A DNA stretch of 36,184 bases. Source: Fretibacterium sp. (GTDB lineage: Bacteria; Synergistota; Synergistia; Synergistales; Aminobacteriaceae). Below, piece by piece: positions 9,467 through 17,447 of the stretch (the first letter of the stretch is position 1; each line of letters starts with the position of its first letter). Below the pieces are notes generated by a model, which saw only the letters and a program-made list of their open reading frames with translations, was not told the origin of the DNA and ran no database searches. The position numbers and the translations under genes are program-made. The DNA lies in assembly GCA_012520235.1 (NCBI GenBank), contig JAAYOR010000006.1, positions 1 through 36,184 on the forward strand. The letters are read 5' to 3'.

Positions 9467-9701
9467 GCTGTGAAGTGCTTTGGTTCTTTCCCTCTTTTTT
9501 CTCTTTTTCAGGTTTTTGTGAAAGCGAGGTGAGGTCGTTGTCTCTTGTCTTGACGTGACGCTGAAGCGCGCGCTGTCAGGGCGTCGCCCTGAGGTCAGAG
9601 CCTGAAGTGGCCCTGCTTTTTACGGCCTCACAGGCGAAACCGGCTGAGCCTTCAAGAGGGACCTGCCCTCTTGAGCTTGTTTTTGCTTTGTAAAACCTGA
9701 A
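9467..9701 (+). promoter_or_regulatory. Structured leader of yedE with attenuator-like terminator
   Basis: No gene fits this 235-base stretch. It begins with a pyrimidine-rich segment. Three hairpins follow: TCAGGGC (9576-9582) with the matching arm at 9585-9592; GGCCTCA (9624-9630) with TGAGCC (9645-9650), one bulge; and a perfect 9-bp stem TCAAGAGGG (9652-9660) with CCCTCTTGA (9666-9674), followed by GCTTGTTTTTG. The last one looks like an intrinsic terminator placed just ahead of the ribosome site of the selenium/sulfur transport gene. This layout suggests a transcription attenuator or riboswitch. I could not match it to a known riboswitch class. Confidence 0.5.
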
Positions 9702-12305: not shown

Positions 12306-12773
12306 TTATTTGTCGTGTCCTTCTGGCTCCAGCTTGTTGTCGGCTGTCTTGCTCCAGTCTATGACACCGCCCTTATAGTTCGTCACCTTCTCGGCCTCGA
12401 AGGAAAAGTCCTTGACGAGAGCCTCAGCAAATTCGTTGCTCTGTTTTCCGGAGTTGCAGTAGACGATTACCTCTACATCCTTTACGATGCCGGCCGCGGT
12501 CAGGGCCTCGGCAGCTCCTTCCTCCTTCAGCTTGGCCAGGGGGAAGTTAATCGTTCCGGGGATGTGTCCGCCGGGGATCCCCTCGCGAGGGGCTTTGCCG
12601 TTGTAGACCTCCTCCGGGCGGACGTCTACGACGATGACGCCGGGCTGGCCCAGCTTCTCCTTAAAGGTGGCCTGATCGATCTCCCCGATCTTAGGTCCAA
12701 AAAAGGCGCTGGCAACGCCGGAAAGGACAAGGACGAACAGTGCAGCCAAAGACAGTTTTTTCAGATGCTTCAT
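12306..12773 (-). CDS. Exported rhodanese-domain protein
   Basis: A 155-aa single-domain sulfurtransferase with signal peptide (residues 1-23, ASA-FFG). The rhodanese fold is marked by VIVVDVRPEEVYNGK (46-60), GGHIPGTINFP (68-78) and the active-site loop C-N-S-G-K-Q-S with Cys106 forming the persulfide. It should act in the periplasm, moving sulfane sulfur (or selenium), perhaps with the YedE protein or the TVP38/Fe-S operon next door; that link is positional inference. The start codon (complement of 12771-12773) is preceded by AGGAGAG. The last residues after the domain are acidic with a terminal GHDK. Confidence 0.9.
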   Translation of the reverse strand: MKHLKKLSLAALFVLVLSGVASAFFGPKIGEIDQATFKEKLGQPGVIVVDVRPEEVYNGKAPREGIPGGHIPGTINFPLAKLKEEGAAEALTAAGIVKDVEVIVYCNSGKQSNEFAEALVKDFSFEAEKVTNYKGGVIDWSKTADNKLEPEGHDK

Positions 12774-12789
12774 AATACAGTCACTCTCC

Positions 12790-13345
12790 TATAGAAAATC
12801 AATGATGGCGTTACAATTACTCGGCGGAGCTGGCTCCAATGGCATGAGCCAACTCCGAAACCTGGGTTGGCTTCGCGTGGGGCTTTCTCCAGAGTGCAAA
12901 AGCACAAATCAAATATGGAAGCGTCCGCCGCAGGCTTTGACGACTGCTGAAGAACGAAACAGCACGCCCATTTTCAGCGGAGAAGATGAAGGGAGGCCCG
13001 TGGAGCGGAGTTATCTCTGAGAGTGCAGCCCGTGCAGGAGAGTACGGCACGTCATGTGAAGGCACATGTGAATGCATAGGTCATATCTCATCCGCTCCTT
13101 TCTCAGCCCTCATCTGAGGCTGATAAAATTTGGCGCTGCAAAAGGCACAGCGCGGTTGACTTTCTTGCAAATGAAGCAATCCAGTCAACAGCTTCTCAAG
13201 TATAGCAGAGCCCCGGCTTTTAAGAAATCCGCTTTCTCTGAAGACGGAGAGCTTGGAGACAGCCTTGCCTTGAGCGTCGGATGCGCATACTGTGCCTCTG
13301 TCCTTTTACCTCCGCTGATGCAGAAAGCCTGGCTCAAGCGAGCGA
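12790..13345. other. Non-coding stretch rich in hairpins
   Basis: Frames open here (for example 12802-13020 and 13072-13398) lack ribosome sites and recognisable motifs. The stretch 13053-13189 holds four hairpins in a row: CATGTG/CACATG (13053-13068, four-base loop); TCAGCCCTCA/TGAGGCTGA (13103-13123, one bulge); GCGCTG/CAGCGC (13133-13153); and a symmetrical one, GTTGACT-3 nt-TTGC/GCAA-3 nt-AGTCAAC (13155-13189). Such density suggests a structured RNA or repeat-derived DNA. No known RNA family was recognised, and no promoter directly before it. Confidence 0.4.
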
Positions 13346-13374
13346 TTGGTTCTTCCCTGGCATTCGTGTATAAT
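13346..13374 (+). promoter_or_regulatory. Strong sigma-70-type promoter
   Basis: TTGGTT (13346-13351), a 17-base spacer and a perfect TATAAT (13369-13374). Transcription would start near 13381. It drives the mini-ORF at 13421 and, further on, the TVP38 operon that starts at 13703. This is one of the best matches to a vegetative promoter in the window. Confidence 0.75.
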
Positions 13375-13420
13375 CAAATTCGTATTCCATTCCAATAAGG
13401 AGAGGAGAGGAGCGAAAACT

Positions 13421-13507
13421 ATGACTGTCTACACCTGATGCGGTTCGCTGCTGCACGGCGTGCATCTTCGTACCGCAGTGCCCTCCGGTCCGGCTCCTCT
13501 TTCCTGA
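13421..13507 (+). CDS. Candidate UGA-containing mini-ORF (possible selenopeptide or leader)
   Basis: A repeated Shine-Dalgarno (AGGAGAGGAGAGGAG, 13400-13414 region) stands six to seven bases before ATG 13421. The frame reads MTVYT, then UGA (13436-13438), then CGSLLHGVHL and on to a second UGA at 13505-13507, 28 codons in all. The first UGA is directly followed by a hairpin. Its outer stem is TGCGGT (13439-13444)/ACCGCA (13472-13477), its inner stem TGCAC (13452-13456)/GTGCA (13460-13464), and its apical loop GGC begins 18 bases after UGA. This geometry fits bacterial SECIS elements. It could encode a tiny Sec peptide with a U-C pair, be a selenium-sensing leader for the TVP38 operon, or be a five-residue peptide followed by an unrelated hairpin. 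No homologue is recognised. Confidence 0.4.
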
Positions 13508-13582
13508 AGGCGTCCCATCAAATCAAAGCTTCCCAGAGGAAACCGAGCCCGGAGATACGAAATTGCGGCGTATCCCTTCGCT
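13483..13582 (+). promoter_or_regulatory. Downstream leader hairpins of the TVP38 operon
   Basis: After the mini-ORF a long interrupted stem can form: CTCCGG, GGCTC and TTTCCT segments (about 13483-13505) pair with GAGGAAA, GAGC and CCGGAG (about 13535-13554). A further perfect 6-bp hairpin follows, GATACG (13554-13559)/CGTATC (13569-13574). Together with the SECIS-like hairpin this makes a heavily folded leader of about 320 bases between promoter and first long gene. No T run follows, so it is not an obvious terminator. Confidence 0.4.
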
Positions 13583-13702
13583 TTGAATCGATCCCCTGAG
13601 CCTGGAACAGGGCTGACTTGTCTTGTTCTTAAGCTGATGGTGTTTTGTTGTTATCCGGGATCGGGTTGGCGATCTTCTTTTCTCTTTGTGGGAGGAAACT
13701 CT

Positions 13703-14479
13703 ATGAACGATGTCATCCATGATGCCGGCTATGAGGTCGGTGAAAATGAAAAACGCGACGCTCAATACTCTGAGAAGCGGGCAGGGCACGGTGGCAAGAT
13801 CGTACTGCTCCTGATCCTGATTGCGGCGGTCGGTGGTTATTTTGTCTGGCCTTCCTATCGGAACGTGCTGGACTCCATCTTTTCAGCCTTTGCTACGGGC
13901 GACTTTGCGGTGGTTCGCAGCTTCGTTGAGCGCTACGGACGGATGGCTGCAGTGGTCTCCTTCTTCCTGATGATCTTCCAGTCTGTCATGGCGCCTCTGC
14001 CAGCCTTTCTGATCACCTTTGCCAACGCCAGCCTCTTTGGCTGGTGGCGCGGCGCTATTCTGTCGTGGACAAGTGCCATGGCCGGCGCTGCCGTGTGCTT
14101 TGCCATCGCCCGCATCCTCGGGCGCGACGTGGTTGAGAAGCTCGCCAGCGGGGCCGCCTTGCGGAGCATTGATGCTTTTTTTGAAAGGCATGGGGGCCAG
14201 AGCATCCTCATCGCCCGTCTTCTGCCGTTCATCTCCTTTGATGTGGTCAGCTACGCTGCCGGGCTCACCTCCATGAAGTTCTGGCCCTTCTTCGTTGCGA
14301 CGGGCCTTGGGCAGCTTCCGGCCACGGTCATCTACTCCTACGTCGGAGGAATGCTGACGGGCGGCGCGCGGCTCTTTGTCACAGCGCTCCTGATCCTCTT
14401 CGCCCTCTCGGTGCTGGTCGTCCTGATGAGGGAGATTTATACCGAACGCAAGAAACGCTCTGCCGGAGGCGCCTCTTGA
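13703..14479 (+). CDS. TVP38/TMEM64 (DedA-like, SNARE-associated) membrane protein 1
   Basis: A 258-aa membrane protein of the VTT-domain family. A charged N-terminal tail (1-28) leads to a first membrane helix (about 31-50). The conserved core follows: a proline-rich FQSVMAPLPAFLITFANASLFGWWRGAILSW segment, a G-R-D segment, and ARLLPFISFDVVSYAAGL with the G-L-T-S-M-x-F-W-P-F signature. These proteins are thought to act in lipid scrambling or small-solute/metalloid handling; exact substrates are unknown. ATG 13703 follows GGGAGG by seven bases; an upstream in-frame TTG at 13583 lacks a ribosome site. It is the first gene of a five-gene operon and overlaps the second by four bases. Confidence 0.88.
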   Translation: MNDVIHDAGYEVGENEKRDAQYSEKRAGHGGKIVLLLILIAAVGGYFVWPSYRNVLDSIFSAFATGDFAVVRSFVERYGRMAAVVSFFLMIFQSVMAPLPAFLITFANASLFGWWRGAILSWTSAMAGAAVCFAIARILGRDVVEKLASGAALRSIDAFFERHGGQSILIARLLPFISFDVVSYAAGLTSMKFWPFFVATGLGQLPATVIYSYVGGMLTGGARLFVTALLILFALSVLVVLMREIYTERKKRSAGGAS

Positions 14480-15153
14480 GACGATACGCCAAGGCCCTGG
14501 GGCTGATTGCGGTCCTGACCGCAAGCTTCTTTTTGGACCGCTATTTTGGCTGGTCCAGGACCCTCTTCTCTACTGAGACCCTGGAGGGGCTGCGAGGCAT
14601 GGTGCAAAGCGACCCCTCCAGGGCCGCGCAGGTCTACGTCCTCGTCACATCGATAACCTGTGTCCTTCTGGCTCTTCCGGGCGTCGTCTTTGCTGTCGCT
14701 GCCGGGGTCCTCTTTGGGCCCTTCCTCGGGTCTCTCTTGTGCCTCATAGCCACGACGATTGGAGCGGCTATGGCCTTTCTGGCCGGACGGTATTTTATGC
14801 AGGATGCCGTCAGGCCATGGGTGGAGGGCAATCGGCATCTGAAGCGTTTTCTCTTTGAGGACATCGACAGAAGCGGCTTTGTGCTCCTGATGGTTACCCG
14901 CCTGATCCCTCTGTTTCCCTACAACCTTCAGAACTTCGCTTACGGCCTCACTGACATCAAGCTGCTCCCCTACACGTTCTACACCTTCATCTTCATGGCT
15001 CCGGGCGTCACCTTCTTCACCTTCGGGGCGGCAGGGTTGGGGGACCCGGCAAACCGACGCCACTATCTGGCCTTCGCCGGCCTTCTGGCCTTGGGTGTTG
15101 TGGGGGTTGGGCTCTGGCTTTACAGACGTTTCGTCAAGGAGGTTGAGGAATGA
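14476..15153 (+). CDS. TVP38/TMEM64 (DedA-like) membrane protein 2
   Basis: A 225-aa second VTT-domain protein, clearly diverged from its neighbour. Hydrophobic segments lie near residues 5-20, 52-75, 78-98, about 134-145, 167-187 and 197-216. The core motif is VTRLIPLFPYNLQNFAYGLTDI (about residues 139-160), followed by PYTFYTFIFMAPGVTFFTFGAAG. It starts with TTG at 14476, overlapping the previous stop (TTGA), so translation is coupled. Two different TVP38 proteins beside Fe-S and selenodomain-associated transferase genes is a recurring bacterial arrangement, described around arsenosugar/selenium-linked clusters. It suggests a shared lipid or metalloid pathway (inference). Confidence 0.87.
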   Translation: MRRYAKALGLIAVLTASFFLDRYFGWSRTLFSTETLEGLRGMVQSDPSRAAQVYVLVTSITCVLLALPGVVFAVAAGVLFGPFLGSLLCLIATTIGAAMAFLAGRYFMQDAVRPWVEGNRHLKRFLFEDIDRSGFVLLMVTRLIPLFPYNLQNFAYGLTDIKLLPYTFYTFIFMAPGVTFFTFGAAGLGDPANRRHYLAFAGLLALGVVGVGLWLYRRFVKEVEE

Positions 15154-15995
15154 GCGCTTCCAAAAAGACTTTTCGCCATCGCCGCTGGGGCCTGCGGCTG
15201 CATCAGAGCTTGGTCTTCTCCCCCCTCTTTTGCCGGGCGGTCGGGGCCGGGGGCACGGGTCGTGCTCAAAGGGTCTTTTTCCCGGGCTGCAGTCTGGCGG
15301 CCTACGCGCCGCATCATGTCCTGGCGGTGAGCGATTATCTTCGCGAGCGTCTGGAAGGGGTCGGAGTCCTTCTCAAGTGCTGTGGCAAACCCCTCAGGCT
15401 GGCGTCCCTGAAAGAGAGCTTTCAGGCCCGTTTTGACTCGCTCAGGTCCGAGCTCGACAGGATGGGAGCTGAGGAGGTCATTGTCGCCTGTCAAAACTGC
15501 TACGTCCTTTTCAACCAGCTGGACGAGAGGCGCCGGGTGCGTTCGCTCTGGACGCTTTTTGAAGAGCAGGGGCTCCCGGAGGGGCTCTGCGGGAGCGCCG
15601 AAGGGCTGGAGGCCTCGATTCAGGACTCCTGCACCACCCGAGGCATTGCCGAGATAACCGGGAGCGTCCGGTCCCTGCTGGACGAACTGGGCGTCACGGT
15701 GCATGAGATGGAGTTCTCCCGGGAGCGTGCCCGATGCTGCGGCTACGGCCCCCAAATCGTCTCAGGTGATGCGAAGCGGGGAAGGCAAGCCATGCTGAAG
15801 CGAGCAGCGGAGTCGCCCTGCGAGACGATCGTCTCCTACTGTGCCTCATGCCGGTCGGCCATGGGCTTGGATGGAAGGAAGAGCCTGCACCTTCTGGATC
15901 TGATCTTCGGCGCTCCTCCGCCCTCCTCCGGAGGGCCGATGAGGGACTGGCTCAACCGCTGGAGGGCCCGACAGCTTCTGGGGCGCTCCGCGTGA
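15150..15995 (+). CDS. CCG-domain (heterodisulfide reductase B-like) Fe-S protein
   Basis: A 281-aa protein with two cysteine-rich CCG domains (PF02754 type) that can bind a non-cubane or 4Fe-4S cluster. Domain 1 is FFPGCSLAAY (about residues 46-55), KCCGKPL (about 76-82) and VACQNCY (about 113-119). Domain 2 is DSCTTR (about 160-165), RCCGYGPQ (about 194-201) and SYCASCRSAM (about 230-239). Such domains appear in HdrB, GlpC and glycolate/lactate oxidase subunits, handling thiol-disulfide or quinone-linked electron transfer. No partner dehydrogenase is adjacent; here it probably supplies redox chemistry to the TVP38/transferase pathway. The ATGA overlap with the upstream gene indicates coupling. 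The N-terminal 30 residues are basic and unlike the family core. Confidence 0.87.
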   Translation: MSASKKTFRHRRWGLRLHQSLVFSPLFCRAVGAGGTGRAQRVFFPGCSLAAYAPHHVLAVSDYLRERLEGVGVLLKCCGKPLRLASLKESFQARFDSLRSELDRMGAEEVIVACQNCYVLFNQLDERRRVRSLWTLFEEQGLPEGLCGSAEGLEASIQDSCTTRGIAEITGSVRSLLDELGVTVHEMEFSRERARCCGYGPQIVSGDAKRGRQAMLKRAAESPCETIVSYCASCRSAMGLDGRKSLHLLDLIFGAPPPSSGGPMRDWLNRWRARQLLGRSA

Positions 15996-16011: not shown

Positions 16012-16716
16012 GTGATCTCAATCGTCATCCCGACCCTGAACGAGAGCGTTCGCATTGTCCCGTTGCTGAAATCCCTGTCCGAGCTTCCTGGCGATAAGGA
16101 GCTCCTCGTTGCCGACGGGGGCAGCACGGACGGCACGCCCGCGCTGGCCGGGGAGTGGGCGTGCGTCATCCGGTGCGGGCGGGGCCGCGCGCTTCAGATG
16201 AACTCAGGAGCTGCGGCGGCTCGGGGCCATGCTCTCTGGTTTGTGCACGGGGACTCCCAAGTTGCGCCGACGAGCCTTTCTGACATCGACGCAGCCCTCT
16301 CGGAGGGCTGCGTCGGAGGTTTTTTCCGTCTTCATTTTTATGACGCGAACGACCGGTTCATGCGTTTTATGGAGTACACCTCGCACCTGCGGGCCCGAAA
16401 ATACGGCCTGATCTTCGGGGACCAGGGGCTGTTCCTGAGTCGGGAGCTCTTTGAATCCCTGGGCGGCTTTGCCCCTCTGGCCCTGATGGAGGACTGGGAG
16501 CTGGCTCGGCGGTTACGACCCTTGCACCGCAGGGGGCTCATCCGCGCTCTCGAAACTCCTATCGGGACATCGGCCCGACGCTTTATCCAAAACGGGCGGA
16601 TGAGAACGCTCCTGAAGAACCACCTGGTCAAGACGCTCTACATCCTGGGGGTCCCGACCGAAACTCTCTGCCGCCTCTATGAGGGGCACCGCAAGGAGAA
16701 AGGGGCCGGACGATGA
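16012..16716 (+). CDS. Glycosyltransferase family 2, rSAM/selenodomain-associated transferase 2
   Basis: A 234-aa GT-A enzyme of the TIGR04283 type. It begins at GTG 16012 with ISIVIPTLNE and has VADGGSTDGT (about 34-43), WFVHGDS (about 76-82, the metal-binding acidic motif) and FGDQGLF plus MEDWELARRLR near 134-170, which fit the acceptor side of the fold. The family name comes from frequent co-location with a selenocysteine-containing radical SAM protein; that protein is not in this window. Sugar donor and acceptor are unknown. The start is 16 bases after the previous stop with only a weak ribosome site. The DNA just before it resembles a tRNA T-arm by chance. Confidence 0.88.
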   Translation: MISIVIPTLNESVRIVPLLKSLSELPGDKELLVADGGSTDGTPALAGEWACVIRCGRGRALQMNSGAAAARGHALWFVHGDSQVAPTSLSDIDAALSEGCVGGFFRLHFYDANDRFMRFMEYTSHLRARKYGLIFGDQGLFLSRELFESLGGFAPLALMEDWELARRLRPLHRRGLIRALETPIGTSARRFIQNGRMRTLLKNHLVKTLYILGVPTETLCRLYEGHRKEKGAGR

Positions 16717-17447
16717 AAGTCGCGGCGAAAAAGACTGAGATGAAAAAGGCTAAAGAAAGGGGCGAGGTAAAAAAAGCTGAGGTAAAAAGGGCCGAGGCCC
16801 TGCTCATCTTCTCCCGGCTGCCCGTCGGGGTGGAGACCAAGACCCGTCTGGCGCCCCTCTTGGACGAAAGCTGCCGGGAGCAGCTGCACCGATGCTTTTG
16901 GGCCGACATCTTCGCGTCTCTCCTGGAGCTTCGGGACCGAATGGACCTCTTCCTCTGCTGGACAGGGAGTGGCGCCCCTGAGACGTACTCCCACCTGATC
17001 CCAGCTGAATTCCAGCTCCGCGAGCAGCGGGGCGCCAGCTTAGGGGACAGGATGTTTAGGGCGGCGCAGGACGCCTTCGAGTCAGGCTACGAACGGGTGG
17101 CGATCGTTGGCTCGGACATCCCTCAGCTTCGGCCCGAGAGCGTCCGCAGAGGCTTTGACGCGCTCTTGCGGGCGGACGTTGTCCTGGGGCCGGCTTATGA
17201 CGGAGGCTATTGGTTCATCGGGATGAAAAAAGCGCATCCTGAGCTCTTTGACCTCTCCGTCCCCTGGGGCGGCAGCGAGGTCCGGCTGGGCACCCTGGCT
17301 CGGATGGAGCGCTTGGGCTGCCTTTATGCGGAGACCGACGCCTATCGGGACATCGACACCCCGGACGATCTACGAGCATTTCTGGCCGAGGGGCACGAAC
17401 GCGGGACTGCGACCCGAGCCTTTCTGGAGACGCTGTTTCATCCATAA
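16713..17447 (+). CDS. DUF2064 nucleotidyl/glycosyltransferase, rSAM/selenodomain-associated transferase 1
   Basis: A 244-aa protein of the TIGR04282 type (DUF2064, CobY/MobA-like nucleotidyltransferase fold). The core starts ALLIFSRLPVGVETKTRLAP (29-48), has RGASLGDRMFRA, then IVGSDIPQL (acidic metal site) and GPAYDGGYWFIG, all family hallmarks. It pairs with transferase 2 in many genomes. ATG 16713 overlaps the previous stop (ATGA). Oddly, about 28 residues of Lys/Glu-rich, imperfectly repeated sequence precede the core, which in most relatives begins within a few residues of the start. An internal ATG at 16740 would trim but not remove this tail. It is the last gene of the operon; a hairpin at 17461-17495 follows. 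Confidence 0.9.
   Translation: MKVAAKKTEMKKAKERGEVKKAEVKRAEALLIFSRLPVGVETKTRLAPLLDESCREQLHRCFWADIFASLLELRDRMDLFLCWTGSGAPETYSHLIPAEFQLREQRGASLGDRMFRAAQDAFESGYERVAIVGSDIPQLRPESVRRGFDALLRADVVLGPAYDGGYWFIGMKKAHPELFDLSVPWGGSEVRLGTLARMERLGCLYAETDAYRDIDTPDDLRAFLAEGHERGTATRAFLETLFHP

Follow-up and report, generated by a model that had tools for sequence, protein, structure and literature searches.

A putative Sec-decoding regulatory leader upstream of candidate selenium operons in Synergistales

Two divergent leaders in the window

The window, by which we mean the whole 36,184-nt stretch of Fretibacterium sp. DNA that was analyzed, contains a very short open reading frame with an in-frame UGA, followed on the same strand by the genes of a TVP38-type operon (Table 1). 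The initial annotation of this region had listed a Shine-Dalgarno (SD) sequence, an ATG, five codons, a UGA, a hairpin and a frame of 28 codons, and each of these was located exactly where it had been placed. Its proposed consensus promoter fared less well: the location, the spacing and a perfect TATAAT –10 box were confirmed, but the –35 box matched at only 3/6 positions and the site remained under the promoter-scan threshold. The C/T-rich tract preceding the second stop is possibly a Rho loading or pairing site. Of the two terminator-like hairpins predicted between the leader and the first structural gene, the one nearer the gene was assigned a low probability by folding.

Table 1. Leader elements and neighboring genes in the window
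Feature	Position	Strand	Remarks
Terminator-like hairpin TCAAGAGGG-ACCTG-CCCTCTTGA, then GCTTGTTTTTG	9652-9690		strong; ~30 nt before YedE start (9720)
Secreted rhodanese-like protein	12306..12773	-	downstream of second leader, which may control it
Second leader ORF MTYAFTCAFT-U-RAVLSCTGCTLRDNSAPRASLHLLR	12974..13084	-	ATG 13084-13082, stop 12976-12974; R2 match 13066-13016, 16.1 bits
SECIS-like hairpin TGCA-CGGGC-TGCA of second leader	13024..13036	-	loop G 20 nt after UGA
In-frame UGA of second leader	13054-13052	-	
Promoter-like site	13346-13374	+	putative, read in sequence; TTGGTT 13346-13351, 17 nt, TATAAT 13369-13374
SD of first leader ORF	13397..13413	+	purine-rich AAGGAGAGGAGAGGAGC
First leader ORF MTVYT-U-CGSLLHGVHLRTAVPSGPAPLS	13421..13507	+	ATG 13421, five codons, then UGA; 28 codons if U is counted
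In-frame UGA of first leader	13436..13438	+	presumed Sec codon; kept in all aligned leaders
SECIS-like hairpin of first leader	13439..13477	+	covariation; R2 47.2 bits; first loop G 18 nt after UGA
Outer stem, TGCGGT/ACCGCA	13439-13444/13472-13477	+	
Inner stem, TGCAC/GTGCA	13452-13456/13460-13464	+	conserved core 13452-13464
Loop, GGC	13457-13459	+	
C/T-rich, G-poor tract	13478..13504	+	directly 5΄ of second stop
Second stop of first leader, TGA	13505-13507	+	
Terminator-like hairpin in leader	13554..13574	+	predicted
Terminator-like hairpin and T-rich tail	13657..13676	+	27 nt upstream of TVP38a start
TVP38/DedA-type membrane protein a (TVP38a)	13703..14479	+	first structural gene of putatively controlled operon
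TVP38-like membrane protein b	14476..15153	+	
Fe-S (CCG-domain) protein	15150..15995	+	related to part of NF045663
TIGR04283 family glycosyltransferase	16012..16716	+	above cut-off
TIGR04282 family transferase	16713..17447	+	above cut-off

Taken alone, the first leader did not exceed chance, since the stability of its hairpin was not above that of shuffled sequences in single-sequence folding (z –0.84), the –35 box was incomplete, and Rfam models gave no match to the leader. Its significance derives from the comparison across genomes, in which the succession of SD, ATG, UGA and hairpin recurs before both orthologous and unrelated operons.

A second leader, picked up on the opposite strand by covariance model R2 (see below), displays an SD, an ATG, 10 codons, a UGA, a hairpin, 25 codons and a stop. 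Much of the intergenic region between TVP38a and the rhodanese gene consists of the two divergent leaders, and an orthologous leader precedes the rhodanese gene of another genome (G012). The segment up to and including the UGA of the second leader contains an imperfect repeat with TGT in its first copy and TGA in its second (TTC ACA TGT GCC TTC ACA TGA). A putative leader before the YedE gene of the window (9521-9583, 11 bits) was not accepted, as it lacked the hairpin. YedE may still be attenuated, given the terminator-like hairpin in front of it, though no clear leader was found there; the YedE gene of G007 does carry a leader.

Recurrence across Synergistales

We read the sequences upstream of TVP38 orthologs and searched with a DNA pattern, and then with two covariance models, R1 (12 leaders) and R2 (27 leaders). 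The same design with a diverged sequence was found upstream of the TVP38 orthologs of Fretibacterium fastidiosum and several other Synergistaceae; overall, leaders preceded the TVP38 orthologs of six other genomes and unrelated operons in many. An SD sequence was located at the equivalent place in the inspected leaders. The outer stem and the Cys codon after the UGA were not conserved across leaders. By reading the individual sequences, we confirmed about 48 leaders, distributed over some 25 Synergistales genomes. At a threshold of E 0.003 or better, R2 yielded 44 matches in 183 Synergistales genomes, of which 26 were positive. At the same threshold, 391 Clostridia genomes gave 0 matches under strict fast filters, a result that provides a specificity control for R2 and, owing to those filters, does not establish that the element occurs in Synergistota only. 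A nucleotide search for the leader in 60 relatives matched the window alone, which indicates that the element is conserved in pattern and not in sequence.

The genome from which the window derives (G000) contains at least seven leaders, each placed ahead of a structural gene, and the operons concerned are of several kinds. Two of the leaders lie in the window (before TVP38 and before the rhodanese gene). On contig C183, leaders precede the genes for a PstS-like protein, an SsuA-like permease and an SsuA-like binding protein; a further leader precedes a double-cubane reductase gene on C60, and another lies upstream of a CobW-like GTPase and MoeA on C2. The three leaders of C183 (L093/L130) are clustered in 2.3 kb; a PstS-like ABC operon is preceded by one of them, and an SsuA/Sao-like ABC operon contains the other two, one in front of its permease gene and one in front of its binding-protein gene. 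Two other matches were set aside, L144 as a chance hit and L138 as doubtful. The best-scoring leader (L096, 60 bits) is located on a 4-kb contig (C8) of G154, a genome in which selB was not detected; it appears to run antisense to a truncated ACR3-like gene and could be an assembly or binning artefact.

Several downstream families recur across genera: TVP38/DedA, either alone or behind a transglutaminase-like gene; TAXI-TRAP receptors; SsuA-, PstS- and RbsB-like ABC systems; PPC/DUF296, accompanied in G021 and G062 by a membrane protein that is ECF-like by eye; rhodanese; double-cubane reductase with its activator; and YedE (G007). Amino-acid and PhnD-like ABC systems were single cases. In G026, YedF and a double-cubane reductase lie downstream of a leader, and in G125 the double-cubane reductase behind the leader lies near YedF and an SclA-like (Sec-lyase-like) enzyme. 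YedE and YedF are established markers of selenium metabolism, whose genomic associates include a 2-hydroxyglutaryl-CoA dehydratase-like protein and a CoA-enzyme activase (PMC5322559). YedE, YedF, the double-cubane reductases and rhodanese fit a role in selenium metabolism; the other downstream transporters are candidates for a link to selenium. Double-cubane-cluster anaerobic reductases (NF040772), mostly with an activator, were found behind or in operons with Sec leaders at L095, L136, L143, L155 and L158, and this placement suggests that such enzymes may take part in the reduction of selenium compounds.

Hairpin and read-through frame of the leaders

In all aligned leaders, an in-frame UGA, usually reached after 5-6 codons, lies directly 5΄ of the hairpin. 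The loop G was located 16-25 nt after the UGA in 45/45 tabulated leaders, and the first base of the loop core is G and the second G or U. Because the published range for the loop G is 16-37 nt after the UGA (PMC13188914), all 45 leaders conform to the rule for bacterial SECIS elements (bSECIS). The hairpin of grdB, an established selenoprotein gene, displayed a 6-bp stem and a GGU loop 18 nt after the UGA in the same genomes. Single-sequence folding of the leader hairpin was uninformative; in the alignment, 94% of cells were paired with 9 double-sided changes, and the covariation score was above those of all 500 shuffles. The hairpin occupied all three reading phases across leaders (22/15/8), which shows that it is conserved as RNA and not as peptide.

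The genome of the window encodes selB and a tRNA-Sec with the anticodon UCA (tca). We infer that SelB would bind the leader hairpin and that Sec would be inserted at the leader UGA. The initial annotation had made its reading dependent on two things, namely conservation of the UGA and the hairpin in relatives and presence of selB and selC in the genome; the former are conserved, selB and tRNA-Sec were found, and the reading stands in both respects. We detected selB in 24/26 leader genomes compared with 129/183 Synergistales overall, a modest difference (P = 0.005, uncorrected for relatedness); since most members have selB, its presence or absence does not discriminate within the family. The leader genomes without selB were G143 (65% complete) and G154 (95% complete), and the 4-kb leader contig of the latter has no proper downstream gene.

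We then considered the frame beyond the UGA. In 41/42 leaders, a second stop was located 16-38 sense codons past the UGA and never earlier, compared with 20.3 of 42 (sd 3.0) when the distal part was shuffled; in the two alternative frames of the unshuffled sequence, 13 and 8 leaders had such a stop. Among 29 leaders without detectable residual similarity, the corresponding values were 27/29 for the actual sequences and 13.9 ± 2.6 for shuffled ones (maximum 22 in 1000). The search models end 5΄ of this region, and therefore could not have biased the result. The frame after the UGA is accordingly likely to be read, with both its openness and the position of its second stop under selection, and this is the strongest single result of our analysis.

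The peptide itself evolves without protein-type constraint, with 94/78/103 mismatches at the three codon positions. We found neither conserved protein sequence around Sec nor Cys-containing homologues, and Cys follows the UGA in only 7/42 tabulated leaders (6 TGC, 1 TGT). A frame that has to stay readable and has to stop at a fixed distance, while the peptide it encodes is irrelevant, is what characterizes a regulatory leader. Over the 20 nt that precede the second stop, the aligned composition of 41 leaders was C 0.37 and G 0.20.

Proposed control and relation to known systems

From these results, we consider it likely that the element is a Sec-decoding leader that senses Sec-tRNA and, as an attenuator, controls a selenium regulon. 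A ribosome would start on the very short ORF and meet the in-frame UGA. If charged Sec-tRNA and SelB are present, the hairpin would direct Sec insertion, after which the ribosome would unwind the hairpin, read 17-37 codons and end at the second stop. Without Sec-tRNA and SelB, the ribosome would be released or held at the UGA, and the RNA behind it would fold. Release and readthrough would leave different stretches of the leader RNA free and thereby set expression of the operon, presumably through transcription termination, masking of the ribosome binding site (RBS), or both. Selenium status would thus be read out at the UGA in the way that tryptophan is at the Trp codons of trpL. Of the two readings offered by the initial annotation, this one, a leader that responds to selenium status, is well supported and extends to a whole regulon; the other, a micro-selenoprotein with a U-C pair, was abandoned for the reasons given below.

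Provided that the leader is regulatory, we weakly favor a direction in which operons are ON when Sec is scarce, so that uptake and mobilization would be derepressed, and attenuated when it is plentiful. Terminator-like sites between the UGA and the gene were enriched, occurring in 13/42 leaders versus 4.5 ± 1.7. Folding with the ribosome at the UGA or at the second stop revealed no uniform terminator/antiterminator switch; terminator hairpins were clearly changed by ribosome position in only 3/15 cases, all toward termination after readthrough. In the first leader of the window, the predicted formation of the hairpin at 13554-13574 was 0.93 with a ribosome reading to the second stop versus 0.60. 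Release at the UGA was predicted to raise RBS accessibility in 15 leaders, a number that shuffled segments never reached (at most 11), and to lower it in 6. In three leaders (G000_NitT_SBP, G021 and G062), the read-through frame extends across the start codon of the downstream gene in a different frame. The three terminator changes, the modest bias in RBS accessibility and the three overlaps favor expression at low selenium, which is also the sensible sign for uptake genes.

The opposite sign, in which Sec insertion would keep ribosomes on the C-rich tract, block Rho or free the RBS, and so turn operons ON with plentiful selenium, is the less probable direction and would be favored if the C/T-rich, G-poor tract ahead of the second stop were a Rho site. 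However, the predicted changes in RBS accessibility and terminators lean the other way, and the out-of-frame overlaps are explained more easily by repression. The leaders of G021 and G062 (L179 and L184) are short-spaced, and in them the read-through frame covers both the RBS and the start codon of a PPC/DUF296 gene, which is followed by the gene for an ECF-like membrane protein. They offer naturally occurring tests of the direction of control.

A further possibility is that SelB, together with Sec-tRNA, represses or activates by binding the hairpin alone, with the UGA serving merely as a stop. The hairpins do match SECIS elements of the SelB type, and the E. coli selAB leader offers a precedent; we nevertheless regard this as improbable, because binding alone requires neither a UGA that is always in frame behind an SD and an ATG at SECIS spacing nor a frame kept open to a defined second stop. 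That a functional micro-selenopeptide of 28-40 amino acids is made in its own right is very unlikely: the frame is open after the UGA, and a few related leaders (G137/G138) exhibit peptide similarity, but the divergence of the peptides, the hairpin in three phases, the lack of a conserved Cys partner and the many different operons behind the leaders led us to reject it. Finally, the palindrome TGCAC-N3-GTGCA before a regulon-like set of operons might be taken for the DNA operator of a transcription factor, located next to a short upstream ORF of the ordinary kind, which is scarcely credible for an element that sits downstream of the promoter at a constant position after an in-frame UGA, with G-U pairs, paired changes, an asymmetric GG in its loop and a read-through frame.

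Synergistales might run a selenium-starvation regulon with no protein regulator devoted to it, in which each operon has its own Sec-decoding attenuator reporting the supply of Sec-tRNA; this extension is tentative, with its likelihood slightly below even. If the Sec-decoding attenuator acts as proposed, the leaders would represent attenuation by the 21st amino acid, with a recoded stop codon as the selenium gauge, a mechanism of selenium control absent from the papers that we searched; indeed, neither Rfam nor the open-licence literature searched contained a description of a Sec leader of this type. Every operon behind such a leader would become a candidate, and the leaders would therefore supply a testable list of bacterial selenium-uptake genes; according to a 2026 review (PMC13188914), prokaryotes have no known system for specific, high-affinity transport of selenium. 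In addition, the leaders would show that a match to a UGA plus SECIS in a genome scan need not indicate a selenoprotein.

The attenuators trpL, hisL and tnaC resemble the Synergistales leaders in having a short ORF in the 5΄ mRNA with its own SD, a codon for the sensed amino acid and an otherwise free peptide, and presumably in the location of the leader before several operons of one pathway. The short ORF with an SD stands before the putatively controlled genes here as well, its translation being indicated by the frame statistics, and the codon for the sensed amino acid, a UGA with a SECIS, is present in every leader. In contrast to these attenuators, sensing in the Synergistales leaders would proceed through a recoded stop, with release or readthrough as the outcomes, and no uniform terminator/antiterminator was seen. 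The bSECIS elements of fdhF and grdB likewise consist of a UGA and a hairpin with the loop G 16-25 nt on, and those of grdB in the same genomes share the stem length and the GG/GU loop; the leader hairpin differs in being located in an ORF of 20-50 codons without a conserved product, upstream of other genes. The E. coli selAB leader contains a SECIS-like element that binds SelB without a decoded ORF, and selenium-linked control has been proposed for it. It is similar in placing a SECIS-type RNA in a 5΄ leader under such control, whereas the UGA and the reading frame are kept in the Synergistales leaders. Recoding-based autoregulation is known from the prfB frameshift, where a UGA near the start of the ORF measures a translation factor; in the Synergistales leaders, the quantity measured would be Sec-tRNA/SelB and the targets would be other operons in cis.
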